The notes under the pieces were generated by a model, which worked only from the letters and a program-made list of their open reading frames with translations, was not told where the DNA came from and did not search any database. The translations under genes were made by a program, and so were the position numbers. From a virus, in the IMG/VR virus record IMGVR_UViG_3300044608_002771, positions 1 to 48,392 of that record: a stretch of DNA of 48,392 nucleotides, one strand, 5' to 3'. Of this stretch, positions 3,873 to 48,392 are shown in pieces (within the stretch, counting starts at the first letter, position 1; each line of letters begins with the position of its first letter).

Positions 3873-5369
3873 ATGAGCGGAACCGGCCTTCCCATCCAGA
3901 GCCTGATCGACGTCACGGTCACGCTCTCCCCGACCGCTGCCGCCGAGCGGGACTTTGGGGTCCTCCTGATGCTCGGGGACAGCAACGTTATCGACACCGA
4001 CGCGCGGTATCGCGAGTACACCACGCTGTCCCAGGTGGTGGCCGATTTCGGGACCAGCGCTCCGGAGTATCTGTCGGCGGTGATCTTCTTCGCCCAGAAT
4101 CCGCGTCCGGACATCCTGCTCATCGGGAAGTGGGCACGGACCGCGACGAAGGCGCGTCTCTACAGCGCGGTCTTCTCCGCAGCTCAGCAGGCCTCCCTGA
4201 TCTCGAGCATCTCTTCGATCACGAACGGGAAATACAACGTCAGCTTCGACGGCGGAGCGACGATCCTGACGTCTGGCGCGATGAACTTCACCGGCGTCAC
4301 CACCATGTCGGCCATCGCCGCGCTGGTGAACACGAGTCTGTCCGGCTTGACCTGCACCTGGAACGCGGTCAGCGGACAGTTCATCGTGGAGCGCACGACC
4401 ACCGGCGTGTCGTCCAGGATCACCGCGTTCTACGATCCTTCGTCCGGAACGGACGTCAGCGTCCTGCTGAAGCTCCGGGAGACGGACGTTCGGGAGGTGA
4501 GAGGGATCGACGCCGAGACCGCGCTGGTCGCCACGAATATCCTTCTCGGCATGACCATCTCGTGGTATGGCCTCATGTTCGCCGCAGCCACGATGCCGTC
4601 GGACAGCAGCTATCTGGAGGTCGCGGCGGCGATCGAGGCAGCGTCGCCGTCCAGGATCTTCGGGGTCACGAGCGCCGACACGAACATCCTGTCCCCGTCC
4701 TCGACGTCCGACATCGCCTACTCCCTCAGGGCGCTGGGACTCAATCGGACGTTCGTTCAGTATGCCTCCGGCTCCCCCTACTCCTGCGCGGCCATCTTCG
4801 GTCGTGCGTTCACGGTGGACTTCCGGGGAAACAACACAACGATCACCCTGATGTTCAAGCAGGAGGTCGGCGTCGTCGCCGAGGTCCTGACGCAGACGCA
4901 GGCTGCGGCGGTCCGGGGGAAGAACTGCAACGTCTTCGTCCGTTACAACAACGGGACCGCGATCATCCAGTTCGGCACGATGTCGAGCGGGCAGTACTTC
5001 GACGTCATCCATGGGACCGACTGGCTGGCCGACGCAATCCAGACGGGCGTCTACAACCTGCTCTACCAGAGCACGACCAAGATCCCTCTCACGGACGAGG
5101 GCGTCCATCAGGTTCTTTCCGTGGTCGAGTCCGTCCTCTCCCAGGGTGTCACGAACGGACTCGTCGCGCCGGGGGTCTGGAACGGAGGTCCGTTCGGGGT
5201 GCTGACGTCGGGCCAGTTCATGCCGACGGGGTTCTACACCTACACTCCTCCGGTGTCGTCTCTGACAGCAGGTCAGCGGGCGGCTCGGCAGGCTCCCCCG
5301 ATCCAGTGCGCGATCAACCTCGGGAACGCCATCCACGAGGCCAACGTCGCGATCACCGTCAATTCGTAA
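3873..5369 (+). CDS. Tail sheath protein (DUF3383 family)
   Basis: A 498-aa protein. ATG 3873 follows a GAGAGGA site; the frame extends upstream but only inside the previous gene. The N terminus (LPIQSLIDVTVTLSP, then AAERDFGVLLMLGDSNVI) and the FGTSAPEYLSAVIFFAQNPRP motif are diagnostic of DUF3383 contractile sheaths. The C terminus LGNAIHEANVAITVNS matches the inter-subunit exchange arm found in this family. It polymerises around the tube and contracts on infection. The tube gene follows 12 bases later. Confidence 0.93.
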   Translation: MSGTGLPIQSLIDVTVTLSPTAAAERDFGVLLMLGDSNVIDTDARYREYTTLSQVVADFGTSAPEYLSAVIFFAQNPRPDILLIGKWARTATKARLYSAVFSAAQQASLISSISSITNGKYNVSFDGGATILTSGAMNFTGVTTMSAIAALVNTSLSGLTCTWNAVSGQFIVERTTTGVSSRITAFYDPSSGTDVSVLLKLRETDVREVRGIDAETALVATNILLGMTISWYGLMFAAATMPSDSSYLEVAAAIEAASPSRIFGVTSADTNILSPSSTSDIAYSLRALGLNRTFVQYASGSPYSCAAIFGRAFTVDFRGNNTTITLMFKQEVGVVAEVLTQTQAAAVRGKNCNVFVRYNNGTAIIQFGTMSSGQYFDVIHGTDWLADAIQTGVYNLLYQSTTKIPLTDEGVHQVLSVVESVLSQGVTNGLVAPGVWNGGPFGVLTSGQFMPTGFYTYTPPVSSLTAGQRAARQAPPIQCAINLGNAIHEANVAITVNS

Positions 5370-18672: not shown

Positions 18673-19266
18673 CTAGTCCCGACGGTCCGCCGGGTCCAGG
18701 GCGAGGTGACCGGAGTCCTGGAGCCACCAGACTGCCTGCTGCCTCGTCCCGACAGTGACGTGCAGACCCTTCGCGCGAAAACGGTCGGGGTGCGTGCGGA
18801 TCGCCCGATGCCGACTCGCGGTTGTGTCGGGGTTCAGCGGAGCCGTGTTCCCGCGAGCCTCCCGCCGTGCCCTCACCGACGCCAGGCAGTCCTCGAGGGA
18901 CGTGCTGAGGTAGAAGAGCCGGACGGGGATCCCGTCCTCGTGGAGCCTGGCCGTCCTGTGCTGCTCCGCCGACAGAAGGAGACCCTCCATGAAGACGTCC
19001 CGATTCTGTGAGTAGTGCTCCCTCGCCAGCTCGAATGGGATGTCGTTCCCGGAGATTGTGTCGACCCCGCCCGTGGCCGACTCGTAATGACCGAGGATCA
19101 CCAGGTCCCGACCTCCGGAGAGATGGGGGCGGATGTAGAAGTAGGGCTGCTTCCGACCCTTGGCGTGGTGGCTCACCGGGGGCCCATAGATCCCGGTGCT
19201 GTGGAGGAGGGTCTTGGCCAGGTGGGTCTTCCCCGAGCCGCTCGTTCCTCGGATGCTCAATATCAC
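18673..19266 (-). CDS. P-loop kinase, 5-hmdU DNA kinase type
   Basis: A 197-aa protein; GTG 19266 has GGAG seven bases upstream and does not overlap the previous gene. Walker A GTSGSGKT lies at residues 7-14. The stretch LVILGHYESATGGVDTISG, then VFMEGLLLSAEQHRTARL and LFYLSTSLEDCLASVRARREARGN, resembles P-loop kinases tied to thymidine hypermodification, which phosphorylate 5-hydroxymethyl-dU in DNA. The helical domain often fused to such kinases is absent, but a related protein is encoded at 32463-33422. A generic nucleotide kinase remains possible. Confidence 0.72.
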   Translation of the reverse strand: MILSIRGTSGSGKTHLAKTLLHSTGIYGPPVSHHAKGRKQPYFYIRPHLSGGRDLVILGHYESATGGVDTISGNDIPFELAREHYSQNRDVFMEGLLLSAEQHRTARLHEDGIPVRLFYLSTSLEDCLASVRARREARGNTAPLNPDTTASRHRAIRTHPDRFRAKGLHVTVGTRQQAVWWLQDSGHLALDPADRRD

Positions 19267-30057: not shown

Positions 30058-30713
30058 AGCGGGCATGCCTCCTCGAAGTGCCACTCGGTGTATCGTCGGC
30101 GAAGATAGATGCGGATCCTGTCCCGGATGAGGGCCATGTGGGCTGTGGAGACTCCGTCGAACCGGACCTCCCACTCGGCGATGCTCTCGTCGCGACTAGA
30201 CCACGGGTCGGAGTCGTGGAACATCCGGCGCCAGGCGTCCCTGCAACGATCCTCGACATTCTTGCCGAACACGGACCCCATGAGGCGCTCCTGAGCACCC
30301 CACTCCCACATCTCGATGAACTCCGCGATCTTGCAGACGAACTTGACTCCGGGAGGAAGCTTCGCGGGACCAGGGACGCCCCACGGAATGCACATGGAGA
30401 GGCGAGTCTCCTCCTCGAGACGGTTCATCTCCCTGCCAACGGACGGGTTGTCCTTCTTGATCGGGTAGGGAATGTCCCCAGTCCCGACTTCGCCAACGTC
30501 GTGGAACATGAGCTCCACGAGGACGTCCCTCGGAGCATCCGGCCAGATGGCGAGGACGATCCTCATCAACTGCCACGTGTGATCCGCGATGTTCTGCCTC
30601 GTGTGGGACGGCCATGTGTGATACCGAAGGACCTGACCCGCCATCCTCGGGTCCCGACGGAGCTGCATCTCGGGCACAACGGTGCTCGACTGGTGTGGCG
30701 ACATGTCGTTCAC
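30054..30713 (-). CDS. HD-domain 5'-deoxynucleotidase (YfbR-like)
   Basis: A 219-aa protein; GTG 30713 overlaps the previous stop (GTGA), although ATG 30704 is also possible. The YfbR pattern is clear: RYHTWP (His32), ADHTWQL (His45), LMFHDVGEVGTGDIPYPIK with His71, Asp72 and Asp80. Family members remove phosphate from dNMPs. Beside a ThyA homologue it may destroy unwanted dTMP or dCMP and shape the pool for a modified base. An uncharacterised C-terminal 80 residues include YLRRRYTEWHFEEA. Confidence 0.85.
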   Translation of the reverse strand: MNDMSPHQSSTVVPEMQLRRDPRMAGQVLRYHTWPSHTRQNIADHTWQLMRIVLAIWPDAPRDVLVELMFHDVGEVGTGDIPYPIKKDNPSVGREMNRLEEETRLSMCIPWGVPGPAKLPPGVKFVCKIAEFIEMWEWGAQERLMGSVFGKNVEDRCRDAWRRMFHDSDPWSSRDESIAEWEVRFDGVSTAHMALIRDRIRIYLRRRYTEWHFEEACPL

Positions 30714-31720
30714 GACGACATCCCCTCGTTCCTGTTCAACCACATCAGGCACGCCTCCCTCCAGTCGACATGGGACACCCTGGACGCGACGATGGAGGAT
30801 GCCTCGGCCCGGCGCCTCTCGATCGGAACCTCCTTGTCTGCTCGATACGCGACCCACGCGTCGTGCATGGGCACCAGGAGCTCACGAAACAAAGGGGCGC
30901 GCCACGGAGGATCCGACGGACCCCACGTCCACTCCTCGATCGCACCTAGCATGTGATCCGGGTCCCCCGAGAACAGAGGGCTGCGAGTCAGGATCGCGAC
31001 GCCCGACTCGGCGTGGTAGATGTAGGGGTCCGGGATCGGTCGCTCCGGGAGGAGGTGGAGCGTCGACTGGTAGACGTGAAGATTGTAGCTGACCTGGCGG
31101 AGCTCACCCACGTCCACGCCAACCGCCCACGCGACGAACTCCTGCAGGACGGACATGTGGACCGAGTTCGCCCCGTAGGCACCCCAGACCGCGTCGTTTG
31201 ACCGGCACGACACCAGCATGTCGAGCCGACCGTGTCGTATGCTGAGATATATGTGGGTGTTGCACGGGATGTCGGACTTGGACGCGCCGAGATCCTCGCG
31301 CGGGTTCCACATGGTGATGACGCATCGGCGCGTCGTCGGGTCCCGGCGGAGGAGCGTGATGGCGTCTCGGATCTGGTCCCGACCGAAGTGATGGCGCCAC
31401 CTGTGACCGTAGGCTCCGTGGAGAGTTCCGTCGGGCTCGGCGTAGCGGGCACCGAAGTCGGACACGTACTGGTCCAGCCACGCCGCGTCGTCCCGACCAG
31501 CTAGCATCCACATGGACTCGAACAGGTGAAAGAACGGGTTGGCCATCCTCGGCCGCCAGAGAAGGACGCGCTCGCACGGACGCTTGTAGACCGTCGTGAC
31601 CGGGGTCGGGAACACGAGCGCCGGTCCGTTCCGAGTCTCCTCCGGAAGACCGGCCAGACGGAGGATCTGTCCGGCGTGACCATATGCGCCGTTTACGTTG
31701 TTGTGCGCTAGAACTCTCAA
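30710..31720 (-). CDS. Thymidylate synthase homologue, probable dUMP hydroxymethylase
   Basis: A 336-aa protein, ATG 31720. The ThyA core is recognisable: catalytic Cys153 in DIPCNTHIYLSI, SCRSNDAVWGAYGANSVHMSVLQEFVAW (172-198) and YNLHVYQ (212-218). PCN replaces PCH and there is an extra residue in WGAYGAN, features of divergent phage ThyA-like enzymes. Such homologues make dTMP, or hydroxymethyl-dUMP/dCMP in phages with modified DNA. Given the kinase and aGPT-PPlase-like genes here, 5-hydroxymethyl-dUMP is the best guess. Plain thymidylate synthase remains possible. Confidence 0.82.
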   Translation of the reverse strand: MRVLAHNNVNGAYGHAGQILRLAGLPEETRNGPALVFPTPVTTVYKRPCERVLLWRPRMANPFFHLFESMWMLAGRDDAAWLDQYVSDFGARYAEPDGTLHGAYGHRWRHHFGRDQIRDAITLLRRDPTTRRCVITMWNPREDLGASKSDIPCNTHIYLSIRHGRLDMLVSCRSNDAVWGAYGANSVHMSVLQEFVAWAVGVDVGELRQVSYNLHVYQSTLHLLPERPIPDPYIYHAESGVAILTRSPLFSGDPDHMLGAIEEWTWGPSDPPWRAPLFRELLVPMHDAWVAYRADKEVPIERRRAEASSIVASRVSHVDWREACLMWLNRNEGMSS

Positions 31721-31989
31721 TTCAGGTTGCTCCTGTCGACGGGTGTGTGGCGATGCATCTCCGCCAGAGCCGCGCCCCTCTCGACGAGGAGTCGACCGAG
31801 GCTCTCGACGTCGGGCCCTTCCAGAAGACGAGCCGCGACGCTCGCCAGGAGGTGCTTCATCCCCTCCGGACAGAGCCCGCGCTCGTTGCCGATGTCCGCC
31901 GCAGCGCTCGCGACGTATCTCGCGGACTCCTCCAGCATCGCTGATCCGGACTCGGACTCGACGCAGGGGCAGGCGGAACCCTCGGCCAT
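31717..31989 (-). CDS. Small hypothetical protein at head of nucleotide operon
   Basis: A 90-aa protein, ATG 31989 with CTGGAGGTCGTC. The middle is helical (MLEESARYVASAAADIGNERGLCPEGMKHLLASVAARLLEG). Three Cys residues occur, two as CPC near the start. It overlaps the ThyA-like gene by ATGA. Function unknown. It is the first gene after the promoter at 32014-32042, which drives the whole ThyA, HD, DUF3310, polymerase, MazG and nuclease operon. Confidence 0.6.
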   Translation of the reverse strand: MAEGSACPCVESESGSAMLEESARYVASAAADIGNERGLCPEGMKHLLASVAARLLEGPDVESLGRLLVERGAALAEMHRHTPVDRSNLN

Positions 31990-32013
31990 GACGACCTCCA
32001 GAAGTTATGCGCT

Positions 32014-32042
32014 ACTCTACGCCGACGCAGAGTCCGGCGATA
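32014..32042 (-). promoter_or_regulatory. Phage-type promoter for the nucleotide/polymerase operon
   Basis: Minus strand -35 TATCGC (32037-32042), 17-bp spacer, -10 TAGAGT (32014-32019). It overlaps the end of the UDG-like gene. The upstream AGGATTC-like element is not obvious, so this is a somewhat weaker member. Confidence 0.6.
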
Positions 32043-32466
32043 GTAGATCCATCAGCTGGTGAAAAAGAACGGACGTCGCGAGTCTGTTCACGGGATCGTT
32101 GTAGAACAGATTTTTTCCCGACGGGTGTGGAATCTGGATCCAGTCCCGATCATCTGCCCACACGAATGGCGGCGCCGTGTGCCCGAGAGCGGTCGCGACG
32201 TCCGACCCCAGAAGGATCACGGTCCGGCCAGATATCTTCGGTCCGAGCCAGTCGGCCGCCACCCGAGCCTGAGCGCGGTAGTCGCGAGGGAGCTCCGGAT
32301 AGGGAAGAAGATTGTATCGCTGAGTCCGACGGAGCCACGCCTCCGTCGACATCGGCCGGAGAGTCGTGACGATCCGGAACAGCCTGTCTCCCGCCGAGCC
32401 CGGGACGGTCGGGTCCAGGGCGGGGAGTCCCTTCGGGTTGTTGAGTCCGAGGATGTAGGGCCTCAC
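32017..32466 (-). CDS. Uracil-DNA-glycosylase-fold protein
   Basis: A 149-aa protein, GTG start overlapping the aGPT-PPlase-like gene (GTGA). The start MRPYILGLNNPKG and the motif IPHPSGKNLFYND are those of the UDG-like superfamily (motif I region and the HPS loop). RTVILLGSDVATALG is a Rossmann-like strand-helix. It may excise a base, or use the fold to bind a modified base. Coupling to the gene at 32463 suggests a joint role in thymidine modification or its proofreading. No catalytic role can be proven. Confidence 0.72.
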   Translation of the reverse strand: MRPYILGLNNPKGLPALDPTVPGSAGDRLFRIVTTLRPMSTEAWLRRTQRYNLLPYPELPRDYRAQARVAADWLGPKISGRTVILLGSDVATALGHTAPPFVWADDRDWIQIPHPSGKNLFYNDPVNRLATSVLFHQLMDLLSPDSASA

Positions 32467-33422
32467 TGGAACTTCCTCTTCATGCGACCCTGACCCTCGG
32501 TCTTGGCCCTCATGTATTTGTCGAACTCGCAGAGAGTGTGCTCGACCTCACGCATCTCCCACTCGGGATAGTCGGACTGATACGGCCAGTATGCGGGGTC
32601 CCGACTCAGCTCCAGGAGACTTCTCATCTCGCGCTGGGCCTGATCGTCCGGGACCACGACTCGGAGCGCGTGACGAGGCTTCCTCGGCTTGTCGTTTCGA
32701 CGCCCGAATACCCTGGCCAAGCCCCGCAGCGCCCCCGGCCCCACGTTCGCCCAGGTCATCCGGTCCTTGGCGTTCTCCAGGAGCGGAGTGTATCGAAGAT
32801 CGCAGACGACCTCGTAGGCAAGGAACGGTCCGTGGCCGGGGGCGGTCGCCAGCCATTCCGTCACAGCCCTCATGCTGCCGGTTCCGCCACACTCGATCAT
32901 GGATGCAGACCAGACTCGCCAGTTCGTCTCGTAATAGAAGCGCCGGAGGTTGTCCAGGACTCCGTCCAGCTTCGTCATTCCGGTCGGGGAGCGGATCATG
33001 TAGGCACCGGTCACCCACGGTCCCTTCGGGGAAGCGAGTAGGATCGCGTGACGGAGCTCGGACACGTCCCCCGTGTCGAAGAAGTGATCGAACGGAGTCT
33101 GCGCCTCGCAGAACGAGAGCAGCCCCTGGGTGAACATCGACTCGCCGGTCTCGACACGCGTGAACGCACGAAACACGACCGTCGCGAGCAGAAGGCGACG
33201 AGCGAGCTCCGAGCCTCTGTGCCCACCTCCCTCCAGGAGCGGCGTGCGGACCCTGCGCCGGAGCCAGACAGTCGTCCGGTCCAGCTCTCGATAGACGTTC
33301 GTGAAGCGGTTCGTCTGGAGCACCGGGTCCGTCGTCCACGGACGAGGCTCCCCGAGCACCTCCCTGCGGATGTGGACCTCGTGCCGGGCTCGGGCATACG
33401 CGAAGAAGTCCTCGATGCTCAC
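32463..33422 (-). CDS. aGPT-PPlase / 5-hmdU kinase helical-domain protein (putative DNA thymidine hypermodification)
   Basis: A 319-aa protein; GTG 33422 follows GAGAGTGGC. Conserved parts are FFAYARARHEVHIRREVLGEP, NRFTNVYRELDRT (38-50), an FCEAQTPFDHFF region and LAYEVVCDLRYTPLLENAKDRM (from 201). These match the alpha-glutamyl/putrescinyl-thymine pyrophosphorylase superfamily, with a glycosylase-like helical fold. Relatives are fused to 5-hmdU DNA kinases or act as amino-acid:DNA transferases. No P-loop is present here, so the kinase step would come from 18673-19266. This is the strongest marker for hypermodified DNA. Confidence 0.8.
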   Translation of the reverse strand: MSIEDFFAYARARHEVHIRREVLGEPRPWTTDPVLQTNRFTNVYRELDRTTVWLRRRVRTPLLEGGGHRGSELARRLLLATVVFRAFTRVETGESMFTQGLLSFCEAQTPFDHFFDTGDVSELRHAILLASPKGPWVTGAYMIRSPTGMTKLDGVLDNLRRFYYETNWRVWSASMIECGGTGSMRAVTEWLATAPGHGPFLAYEVVCDLRYTPLLENAKDRMTWANVGPGALRGLARVFGRRNDKPRKPRHALRVVVPDDQAQREMRSLLELSRDPAYWPYQSDYPEWEMREVEHTLCEFDKYMRAKTEGQGRMKRKFQ

Positions 33423-45300: not shown

Positions 45301-45317
45301 TCGGACCGAAATAGGGC

Positions 45318-45346
45318 TTTCGTCGGCCCCGAGGTTAGCGTAAGGT
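45318..45346 (+). promoter_or_regulatory. Phage-type promoter reading into the gene-free region
   Basis: Plus strand -35 TTTCGT (45318-45323), 17-bp spacer, -10 TAAGGT (45341-45346). The next gene is about 470 bases away, so its product is more likely a short RNA. Confidence 0.65.
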
Positions 45347-45352
45347 TCCGGG

Positions 45353-45419
45353 TGGTTGGGTGTGGACGCCCCAACTCCTCCCTCGCGGCCGCTTCTGATC
45401 TTCGGATCGGGGCGGCCGC
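45353..45419 (+). ncRNA. Candidate small RNA with exposed anti-Shine-Dalgarno
   Basis: Beginning about 7 bases after the -10 box, the transcript would fold into a 6-bp hairpin (GTTGGG / CCCAAC, 45355-45375), a single-stranded TCCTCCCTC (45376-45384), and a strong closing hairpin (45385-45419). The last has an 8-bp GCGGCCGC stem over a 6-bp stem with a TTCG tetraloop. The unpaired CU tract can pair with GGAGG ribosome sites. The extent of the RNA is inferred. Confidence 0.5.
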
Positions 45420-45423
45420 ACCT

Positions 45424-45721
45424 CCTAGCGGGTCACCTATCACCTCCTAGCGGCGTCCTATCAGTAAAAACTCCGTAAAATCAACAGCCTATCACTCCTA
45501 GCGGACCTAGCGTCCGGTTCGGCGTGGATGGGATCTCGCGGCTGGGCTGCTATCGGCATCGCCTAGCGGCTGGAGCCGCACCCTAACGCCCGCACAGGCG
45601 CGCATGCGCATGCACACGTGAGGAGGATTAGTGATAGGTGTGATAGGTTGTTGAACTTGCGGAGTAATTTGATGATAGGAGAGTGATAGGTTGGTGATAG
45701 GAGAGTAGCGTAACCGCTAGG
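45424..45721. repeat. Inverted iteron region (candidate origin or terminase site)
   Basis: Left side: CCTATCAC or CCTATCAG at 45436, 45457 and 45488; CCTAGCGG-like boxes at 45424, 45446, 45497, 45506 and 45562. Right side, opposite strand: TGATAGG boxes in copies starting at 45631, 45640, 45672, 45683 and 45694, then CCGCTAGG at 45714. Spacings of 21, 31, 9, 32, 11 and 11 bases are close to whole helical turns. An A-rich stretch (45464-45486) and an alternating purine-pyrimidine run (45598-45620) lie inside. No gene is visible in this region. Confidence 0.75.
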
Positions 45722-45754
45722 AACGGAAGGTAGGACGCGGGCGGGGGGCGATGC

Positions 45755-45783
45755 TTTCTTTGCTTCGTGCGTGAGCGTATAAT
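45755..45783 (+). promoter_or_regulatory. Promoter for the terminase/late operon
   Basis: Plus strand -35 TTTCTT (45755-45760), 17-bp spacer and a consensus TATAAT (45778-45783). It lies 36 bases before the first gene of the terminase operon. The -35 fits the phage family more than the usual TTGACA. Confidence 0.75.
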
Positions 45784-45818
45784 AGGCGGAGTCGTCGGGT
45801 GTTTGGGGGGTCGGTGAG

Positions 45819-46355
45819 ATGGGTGGTTCGTATGCGGATCGACGGGACTCCGACGAGAGGGAGTGGATGCCCAGGTTCAGGGAGAGCAGGGACTCGCCCC
45901 CCGGCCTCGTTCCTCTGGACGACGTCCGAGATCACCTCCTCACGGCAGGATCCACACTCGGCAGGATCCAGACTAGGGTTGGTCCGCAGTCGTGGGTGAC
46001 CTCCGCCTGGAGGGACGCCCTCCCCGACCCCGAGGGCGCTCCGGAACCGCTCTCGAGGCGACGACCCTCCGCAGTCGAGATCTCGCACATGGACTGGGTC
46101 CTCGGCTGGCTCCCCCTGATCCCGGACGACCGATACGTCATCCGGAAGATCGTCGCCATGCGGATGCTGATCAACGAGAGGACCGGGAAGCCGAGGCTCA
46201 GCTATAAGAATCTATCTGAAAATCTATCGTCGAGTTCCCAGGCAGTCATGCTGTGGCATCGACAGGGGATCGTGACGATCCAGAGGGGACTGGACCCGAA
46301 AAATCCGCTATGGGACCGATTTTCCGCTTTACGTTTCCGACGGGACGGGGCATAG
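45819..46355 (+). CDS. DUF6362-like protein upstream of terminase
   Basis: A 178-aa protein; ATG 45819 follows GTGAG. Residues about 20-75 are low complexity. The C-terminal half (PSAVEISHMDWVLGWLPLIPDDRYVIRKIVAMRML, LSYKNLSENLSSSSQAVMLWHRQGIVTIQRGLD) has the sigma-like helix-turn-helix layout of the DUF6362 proteins often found before terminase genes. It may regulate late transcription or guide the terminase. It lies next to the iteron region. Confidence 0.6.
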   Translation: MGGSYADRRDSDEREWMPRFRESRDSPPGLVPLDDVRDHLLTAGSTLGRIQTRVGPQSWVTSAWRDALPDPEGAPEPLSRRRPSAVEISHMDWVLGWLPLIPDDRYVIRKIVAMRMLINERTGKPRLSYKNLSENLSSSSQAVMLWHRQGIVTIQRGLDPKNPLWDRFSALRFRRDGA

Positions 46356-46458: not shown

Positions 46459-46992
46459 ATGACCGATATCGCGGACGATCTCGACGAGAAGGGCGTGGCC
46501 GACGAGCTGGCCTCCCCGCACAAGAAGATCGGGCGACCCACTCTCTACAGCCCCGAGTTCGACGAACAGGTCAGGAAGCTGTCCCTCCTCGGTCTGACCG
46601 TCACCCAGATCGCCAGGTTCTTTGGCGTGTCGCTGTCGTGCCTCATGAACTGGTCCAGGGACTATCCGTCCTTTCGCGCGGCCATGCACAGAGGACGAGA
46701 GATCGCGGACGCCGAGGTCGCGGACGCTCTCTACACGAGGGCCATCGGCGGTCGGATCAAGAGGAAGAAGGTCGCCATCAGCAACACCGGAGTTGTCACC
46801 GAGCACGAGTACGAGGAGGACGTCCTCCCGGACGTCGGGGCAGCCCAGTTCTGGCTCGGAGCTCGACACGGCCAGCGCTGGCGCGCGGTCCAGTCCCTGC
46901 AGCATCTGGACGAGAACGGCGAGCCAATGCGGCCACCGAGCGTGACCGTCGTTGGCCTGGACCCCATGCCGCCCCCGGCCCCCGAGTCCTGA
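46459..46992 (+). CDS. terS: Terminase small subunit
   Basis: A 177-aa protein. Residues 25-60 (GRPTLYSPEFDEQVRKLSLLGLTVTQIARFFGVSLSCLMNWSRDYPSF) hold a helix-turn-helix, followed by ADAEVADALYTRAIGGRIKRKKVAI and AAQFWLGARHGQRWRAVQ, the oligomerisation core of this TerS type. The C terminus is Pro-rich. It recognises the packaging site and loads the large subunit; the iterons upstream are candidates for that site. Confidence 0.88.
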   Translation: MTDIADDLDEKGVADELASPHKKIGRPTLYSPEFDEQVRKLSLLGLTVTQIARFFGVSLSCLMNWSRDYPSFRAAMHRGREIADAEVADALYTRAIGGRIKRKKVAISNTGVVTEHEYEEDVLPDVGAAQFWLGARHGQRWRAVQSLQHLDENGEPMRPPSVTVVGLDPMPPPAPES

Positions 46993-46995
46993 CGA

Positions 46996-48207
46996 ATGTC
47001 GCTCCGGATCGAGGTCCCGAGCAAGTTCATCCCGATCTTCCAACCCGGACCTCAGTTCAAGGTCCTGCACGGAGGACGAGGCTCGGCGAAGAGCCACACG
47101 GTGGCGAAGAAACTCGTTCTGGACGCATACTCCGGGAGGGAGCGGATACTCTGCACCCGCGAGTTCCAGACGAGCATCGCCGACTCCGTTCACAAGCTCG
47201 TGACGGATCAGATCGAGGGGATGAAGCTTCGTCCTTGGTTCGACGTGACGAAGAGCTCCATCCGGTGCGTTCTGACCGGCTCCGAGTTCCTCTTCAAGGG
47301 ACTCCGCCACAACATCGAGGAGATCAAGTCCACCGAGGGTATCACGAAGACCTGGATCGAGGAGGCTCGGTCGGCCAGCCGAAACTCGCTGGACGTTCTC
47401 TTCCCGACTATCTTCCGGACCCCGGGAGCCGAGTGCTACATCACCTTCAACCCCGAGGAGGCAACGGACCCCGTCTACGCCGACTTCGTCGAGAAGAGGG
47501 ACCCGACCGCGCTCGTGATCCAGGGAAACTGGCGGGACAACCGCTGGTTCCCCGAGGGCCTCGAGATGCAGAGGCAGCGGGCCATCCGGCTCGGCGACGA
47601 GGATGCCTACGACTGGATCTGGGAGGGTCGCCTCCGGAAGCTGTCCGCAGCCGCGATCTTCCGGAAGAAAGTCTCGTTCGAGACGTTCGAGCCGCCCGAG
47701 GTCGTCGACCGGTTCTACTACGGGATCGACTGGGGCTTCGCCGACGACCCGACCGTCCTCATCCGCTGCTACATCGTCGACGAGGTTCTCTATATCGACA
47801 GGGAGGTCTTCGGATACGGTGTGGAGCTGGACGACCTTCCGGCGCTCTTCTCGACGATCCCAGGGTATCGTGACTGGCCGATCAAGGCCGACAACTCGCG
47901 TCCCGAGACTATCAGCCACGTCGCCCGGAAGGGTGGGATGGCGATCACAGCTGCCCGGAAGTGGCAGGGGTCGGTCGAGGACGGCATCGAGCACCTGAGG
48001 TCGTATCGCCGCATCGTGATCCACGAGACGCGCTGCCCGAACATGGCGGAGGAGGCTCGACTCTACAGCTACAAGACGGACCGCATCTCCGGAGCGATCC
48101 TCCCCATCGTGAACGATGCCCACAACCACGGCTGGGACGCAGTTCGGTATGCCCTCGACGATCTGATCGAGAGTGGGGGCGCAGCAGCATCCTGGGCCAA
48201 CCTCTAG
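46996..48207 (+). CDS. terL: Terminase large subunit (PBSX type)
   Basis: A 403-aa protein, ATG 46996. Walker A is GGRGSAKS (26-33), Walker B is TWIEEA (near 119-124). The nuclease residues are in DWGFADDP, KADNSRPETI and NDAHNHGWDAVRYAL. The pattern is of the PBSX-type phage terminase that packages DNA into the prohead. The family is commonly linked to headful or pac packaging. The portal gene follows within ten bases. Confidence 0.95.
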   Translation: MSLRIEVPSKFIPIFQPGPQFKVLHGGRGSAKSHTVAKKLVLDAYSGRERILCTREFQTSIADSVHKLVTDQIEGMKLRPWFDVTKSSIRCVLTGSEFLFKGLRHNIEEIKSTEGITKTWIEEARSASRNSLDVLFPTIFRTPGAECYITFNPEEATDPVYADFVEKRDPTALVIQGNWRDNRWFPEGLEMQRQRAIRLGDEDAYDWIWEGRLRKLSAAAIFRKKVSFETFEPPEVVDRFYYGIDWGFADDPTVLIRCYIVDEVLYIDREVFGYGVELDDLPALFSTIPGYRDWPIKADNSRPETISHVARKGGMAITAARKWQGSVEDGIEHLRSYRRIVIHETRCPNMAEEARLYSYKTDRISGAILPIVNDAHNHGWDAVRYALDDLIESGGAAASWANL

Positions 48208-48216
48208 GACGCTCCA

Positions 48217-48392
48217 TTGGCCGATAACCCGAAGAGCAAGAGCCTCGTTCGCGCCGCTCGGGCAGCTGCGAGGAAGACCGCCCCGCCCCCGGTCACCGGA
48301 CCGAAGTCGTTCGTCGCCCAGGACTCGTTCCAGAATTTCGCTCTCCGCCTCGGAATGGGGACCGGAAACGCGACGATGGACGGGAGCAGCTA
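48217..48392 (+). CDS. Portal protein (DUF1073-like), 3' truncated
   Basis: From TTG 48217 the frame is open to the window end. The N terminus is Lys/Ala/Arg-rich, then FVAQDSFQNFALRLGMGTGN follows, the typical N-terminal signature of DUF1073-type portals (D-x-FQNF-x-x-RLG). The gene order terminase-portal supports it. The TTG start is somewhat uncertain; no in-frame ATG precedes the signature. Confidence 0.8.
   Translation, partial: MADNPKSKSLVRAARAAARKTAPPPVTGPKSFVAQDSFQNFALRLGMGTGNATMDGSS

Follow-up and report, generated by a model that had tools for sequence, protein, structure and literature searches.

A two-armed array of phased, opposed boxes upstream of a phage terminase operon as a candidate packaging-initiation site

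The IMG/VR virus contig IMGVR_UViG_3300044608_002771 (48,392 bp, the whole stretch analysed, hereafter the window) carries at 45424-45721 an array of about 14 short boxes, arranged in two opposed arms directly upstream of the genes for the small and large terminase subunits (TerS and TerL). This box array is genuine and very far from what chance would produce. With a confidence somewhat short of even, we read it as a packaging-initiation (pac) region resembling that of phage SPP1, in which two wraps of a protein encoded by the terminase operon would bracket the cut and perhaps also control a promoter. The single-copy, mirror-symmetric, phased and non-coding nature of the array supports its interpretation as a cis site that would serve as a platform for an oligomeric protein. 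Two box types are distinguished below, A (CCTATCAC, core CCTATCA/TGATAGG) and B (CCTAGCGG, core CCTAGCG), and the array is composed as follows.

45436, 45457 and 45488, plus strand: CCTATCA, three copies
45632, 45641, 45673, 45684 and 45695, as read on the plus strand: TGATAGG, five copies
45424, 45446, 45497 and 45562, plus strand, and 45714-45721, minus strand: B box, CCTAGCGG
45506, plus strand: variant box B', CCTAGCGT
45424-45513, plus strand: left arm, 90 bp, with B 45424, A 45436, B 45446, A 45457, A 45488, B 45497 and B' 45506
45632-45721, minus strand: right arm, 90 bp, with box 5' ends, going inward, at B 45721, A 45701, A 45690, A 45679, A 45647 and A 45638
45514-45631, no strand: GC-rich centre between the arms, 118 bp, arm dyad near 45567
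45465-45482: A-rich patch
45470-45486, plus strand: left copy of a 17-bp element, ACTCCGTAAAATCAACA, occupying the left arm's 31-bp gap between boxes
45649-45665, minus strand: right copy of the 17-bp element, ACTCCGCAAGTTCAACA, placed by the arm alignment

An earlier note on this DNA had described three CCTATCA boxes facing five TGATAGG boxes across about 140 bases, and its counts, strands and coordinates proved exact, the inner A boxes being separated by 137 bp; the interleaved second box type and the A-rich patch that it mentioned correspond to the B boxes and to 45465-45482, with two left-arm A-tracts 11 bp apart (45466 and 45477). All window copies of CCTATCA/TGATAGG (8/8) and of CCTAGCG (6/6) lie inside 45424-45721, and none occurs in the other 11,745 bp that are added when a strain contig, G001 (17,435 bp), bridges the last base of the window to its first to give a closed map of 60,137 bp. 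An order-2 model predicts 2.2 and 3.7 copies per window, respectively, in scattered positions. Among 40 simulated genomes with the same trinucleotide statistics, the best 7-mer cluster reached four to five copies and the best two-arm cluster four, against the eight observed. A weight matrix built from the 14 boxes gave seven further near-matches in the window, all isolated, and found nothing in the 11.7 kb outside it. Since the boxes occur at one place in 60.1 kb, a single-locus function fits them better than a regulon. The array also occupies what had rightly been called the only long gene-free stretch: 45301-45716 is the longest stretch free of open reading frames (ORFs), and the sole one in the window above 45 bp without an ORF of at least 60 aa on either strand, by our own gene calls. 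An Rfam search returned no match. The single copy, the two phased mirror arms and the freedom from ORFs support the idea of a predicted cooperative protein-binding array at a single-locus cis site beside the terminase operon.

Three features go beyond what had been described earlier, namely the inverted-copy relationship of the arms, the presence of A and B at equivalent places, and the shared 17-bp element. The arms are inverted copies that have diverged. Their imperfect alignment spans about 88 columns, starting at the outer B box and reaching the inner boxes, and scores 70 compared to a mean of 19 and a maximum of 43 in a null of about 5,000 random pairs. At two equivalent positions the box types are swapped, a left-arm B standing opposite a right-arm A; because the types interchange in this way, the same protein probably reads both through the shared CCTA(T/G)C(A/G). 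The boxes keep one orientation within each arm, and their spacings are 12, 10, 11, 31, 9 and 9 bp in the left arm and 20, 11, 11, 32 and 9 bp in the right arm. The expected phasing near multiples of 10.5 bp was clear in the right arm (R 0.946, 0.5% of random placements) and only marginal in the left arm (R 0.847, 4% of random placements). The 17-bp element, ACTCCGYAANNTCAACA, is common to both arms and lies in register within the 31/32-bp box gap; taken alone, with the boxes masked, it is not significant (score 22).

The pac interpretation suggests the following mechanism. A multimeric DNA-binding protein of the adjacent operon, either TerS or a 178-aa protein encoded ahead of it, would contact one CCTA(T/G)C(A/G) box per helical turn, and a single oligomer could then wrap an entire 90-bp arm (about 8.6 turns); a ring built of identical DNA-binding domains would require just such boxes, all in one orientation and recurring at one-turn intervals over eight to nine turns. 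The two wraps would be opposed across the 118-bp centre, and the first TerL cut would be made there, just as TerS of SPP1, bound at pacL and pacR, brackets pacC. With the right arm about 60-150 bp upstream of a candidate promoter, this complex might in addition govern expression of the terminase genes. We infer the identity of the binder, the wrapping, the cleavage and the regulation from this layout and from what is known of SPP1. There, the cut site pacC lies between the TerS sites pacL and pacR, which overlap late promoters and the beginning of terS (PMC6316719); pac carries direct repeats (PMC4737164), and its DNA is proposed to be wrapped on oligomers of TerS (PMC4856287). The likeness comprises two regions flanking a centre, repeats, a terminase promoter zone and a TerL related to the headful one of SPP1, with the binder and the cut only predicted here. 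The present array differs in its near-mirror arms, its about 14 boxes, and its location 740 bp before terS behind another gene. SPP1 is a circularly permuted phage, and the closed circular map is known here from contigs.

The elements downstream of the array on which this interpretation depends are listed below.

45778-45783, plus strand: TATAAT, putative -10 hexamer of a terminase operon promoter, 57 bp beyond the right arm
45819-46355, plus strand: 178-aa protein, PHROG 6836, function unassigned in PHROG (phrog_6836, E 1e-9), candidate box binder
46459-46992, plus strand: TerS (phrog_309, E 3e-38), candidate box binder
46996-48207, plus strand: TerL, closest characterised relatives Sf6 gp2 and SPP1 gp2 (headful)
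G001:C1:3645-15389: 11,745-bp segment without counterpart in the window, just downstream of terL; by position, portal and head genes

The array is placed as an SPP1-type pac site should be, directly upstream of the TerS/TerL operon and its candidate promoter. Its position, together with an apparently headful terminase of Sf6/SPP1 type and a circular map, favours a pac site, which makes this assignment plausible. TerL matched Sf6 gp2 with E 1e-41 and 39% over the ATPase domain, the SPP1 gp2 match fell in the nuclease domain, and both Sf6 and SPP1 TerL were matched in the PDB; no significant match was obtained with the terminases of lambda, HK97, T7 and P22. In TerS, an N-terminal helix-turn-helix (HTH_23/HTH_7, residues 25-69) was found below cut-off. 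The earlier note had placed the array before DUF6362-like and TerS genes, of which the position and TerS hold; the DUF6362 label has a sub-threshold match behind it, the 178-aa protein reaching E 0.05 and 14.3 bits against a PF19889 cut-off of 31. This protein was detected in near-identical strains only, and in none of 28 related records, and its predicted structure was uninformative (pLDDT 40). At some loci, alphaproteobacterial DUF6362 proteins are encoded near genes for ParB-like proteins, terminases or recombinases, the 178-aa protein itself being below the cut-off of that family. Additionally, window 18673-19266 on the minus strand, far from the terminase operon, encodes another protein with a match (E 3e-17) to the terminase small subunit family phrog_800.

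Several observations weigh against assigning the array to packaging. An intervening gene separates its end from terS, 740 bp further on, and the DNA-binding domain of TerS from the Bacillus phage SF6 shows little preference for pac repeats (PMC4737164). In a cross-phage comparison that covered exact 7-mers, no equivalent array was present at 70+ loci with related TerL, 14 of which have a detectable related TerS (24-37% identity). A resemblance was found at 4693-4797 of a contig from an otherwise unrelated phage (L137; IMG/VR 3300025305_003361), where five CCTATCA boxes, four of them CCTATCAC, are set apart by unlike spacers of 13, 22, 34 and 22; the same array is carried at L107:3381-3485. These boxes are non-tandem. 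They directly precede an HNH-terminase operon and have the same orientation towards the terminase, which leans slightly towards a terminase-linked role. No protein common to L137 and the window phage was found, so the resemblance may reflect coincidence or a host factor, and the occurrence of CCTATCAC in two phages may be chance. Among the matches listed, viral contigs with three TGATAGG were mostly minisatellites, besides the phage's own strains and L137/L107, and bacterial genomes with three CCTATCAC were mostly 7-bp minisatellites, with nothing relevant; viral contigs with CCTATCAC beside CCTAGCGG were own strains and chance matches. In a further phage contig, L074:12595-12834 holds inward-facing CCTATCA/TGATAGG arrays within a longer AGACCTATCA context in AT-rich DNA.

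The relation of the array to the genome ends bears on whether it might be a cos site with one cleaved end and boxes of the cosB kind. In lambda, cosB precedes Nu1 as the repeated boxes here precede the terminase operon, and it consists of phased repeats that bind terminase, such binding being only predicted for the present boxes. However, several contigs cross the array site unbroken, and the window and strain contigs close the map through it, which argues against a fixed genome end; moreover, the TerL is of neither lambda nor HK97 type, and cosB is one-sided with a unique cleaved end, whereas the present array is two-sided, on a closed map and beside an unrelated TerL. We therefore consider a cos site very improbable. 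Region 45301-45818 is identical in all three strain contigs that cross the array. Up to 47339 the strain contigs match the window almost perfectly, and in 47340-48392 they have 19-28 differing sites; this break inside terL, at 47339/47340, would be a recombination or strain-mixture boundary.

The organisation of the genome and the stability of its DNA allow a different reading, in which a phage or host initiator would bind the boxes as two opposed filaments, melt the AT-richer arm and start bidirectional replication. The structural genes are transcribed rightwards, and a replication/DNA-modification block (AEP primase, Pam3 gp34-like ATPase, SF1 helicase, PolA, thymidylate synthase and 5-hmdU kinase) is transcribed leftwards from 44.0 to 15.2 kb. 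Transcription thus diverges at 44.0-44.2 kb beside the replication operon, 1.4 kb left of the array, which directly precedes the 178-aa gene, TerS and TerL, and converges nearly opposite, at 15.1 kb. The mirror arms would suit bidirectional initiation, and, of all 60-bp and 100-bp windows in the contig, the least stable fall in the right arm, in part because of the AT-rich boxes themselves. The cumulative GC skew that the earlier note had proposed as a check, computed on the 60.1-kb map, has its minimum at about 41 kb and its maximum at 14 kb, roughly half a genome apart. The minimum does come within about 4.5 kb of the array, but it is not at the array and the skew tracks gene direction, so the skew is confounded as evidence for an origin. 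Iteron origins such as SPP1 oriL/oriR and the PLE RepA origin are comparable as clusters of short repeats in DNA of low stability; these are direct repeats beside an AT-rich element (as in SPP1) or a poly-A tract, whereas here two opposed arms surround a GC-rich centre, and no origin-binding protein or initiator was recognised among the scanned genes. In a comparison of exact 7-mers, the two-arm array is also absent in the closest relatives of the replication genes and primase module (L231/G005, L232/G006, DSL-LC04 and others). On balance, an origin is less likely than not, yet it is the second most likely reading and not far below a pac site. Neither terminase nor replication-gene relatives share the array, so the sequence data do not separate a pac site from an origin. 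The boxes were also compared to a Thermotoga-like DnaA box (AAACCTACCACC), and this candidate was dropped, the B boxes having no CAC core and no host evidence having been found. As to the replication/DNA-modification block itself, a thymidylate synthase-like protein and a 5-hmdU DNA kinase (PF18723) are encoded at window 30710-33422 on the minus strand, from which the phage DNA probably contains hypermodified thymidine.

The two roles need not exclude each other, because in phage ICP1 a pac site mapped in ORF-less space lies near a proposed rolling-circle origin (PMC7145576). The likeness to ICP1 is confined to a packaging start in ORF-less space with a proposed origin nearby; the available part of that source reports no comparable box array, and its pac was located by read mapping rather than by anatomy. 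A single oligomeric protein on both arms could start replication, or a switch to concatemers, and also mark the start of packaging, coupling both at a 300-bp locus with interchangeable A and B boxes, a scheme that we regard as improbable. Of the options raised in the earlier note (origin, pac/cos or both), pac is thus plausible, the origin stays in play, and cos is disfavoured by the closure of the map through the site in several contigs.

The centre and flanks of the array contain further elements.

45562-45569, plus strand: lone B box CCTAGCGG in the middle of the dyad; the palindrome GCGGCT-GG-AGCCGC (45566-45579) overlaps it
45598-45620, no strand: alternating purine-pyrimidine tract GCGCGCATGCGCATGCACACGTG, 23 nt, Z-DNA-prone, inside the array centre
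45385-45419, plus strand: strong hairpin with a UUCG tetraloop at the left boundary of the array (-28.6 kcal/mol, z -4.9)

The palindrome at the middle of two box arms would also fit an attP-like recombination site with arm-type boxes around a core. Neither a tyrosine integrase (PF00589) nor a serine recombinase (PF00239) was found in the window or in the bridging contig G001, the gene set of the phage looks lytic, and such a site is accordingly the least credible of the possibilities considered. To the left of the left arm lie the hairpin and the ends of plus-strand genes; the hairpin folds more weakly on the minus strand and forms a terminator-like stem without a T tract.

The left flank is also relevant to the proposal that the array is purely an operator or enhancer, in which a regulator of the terminase (late) operon would bind the boxes and the arms would loop, with no role in packaging or replication. 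The right arm approaches TATAAT 45778-45783 in phased steps, about 60-150 bp upstream, and its TGATAGG-N4-TGATAGG-N4-TGATAGG run with 4-bp spacers resembles OmpR/PhoB-type direct-repeat operators. No OmpR-type domain (Trans_reg_C, PF00486) is present in the phage, which leaves a host regulator as a possible binder, and no full sigma-70 match including a -35 was obtained for the TATAAT in a consensus scan. In SPP1, TerS reportedly represses its own production, according to a reference given in PMC6316719. A pure operator is nevertheless less likely, and in our estimate rather improbable, because the boxes occur at one place only rather than at other promoters and the left arm faces no gene.

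The choice of packaging site by small terminase subunits is not well understood, in part because the repeats of known pac sites are weak or unlike one another. We know of no origin for the AEP-primase/SF1-helicase/PolA replication module; if the array is an origin, that module would gain a defined candidate. If it is a pac site, its about 14 clean, phased, mirror-arranged boxes would offer a direct test of the ring-wrapping model, in which box, spacing and arm could each be changed separately.
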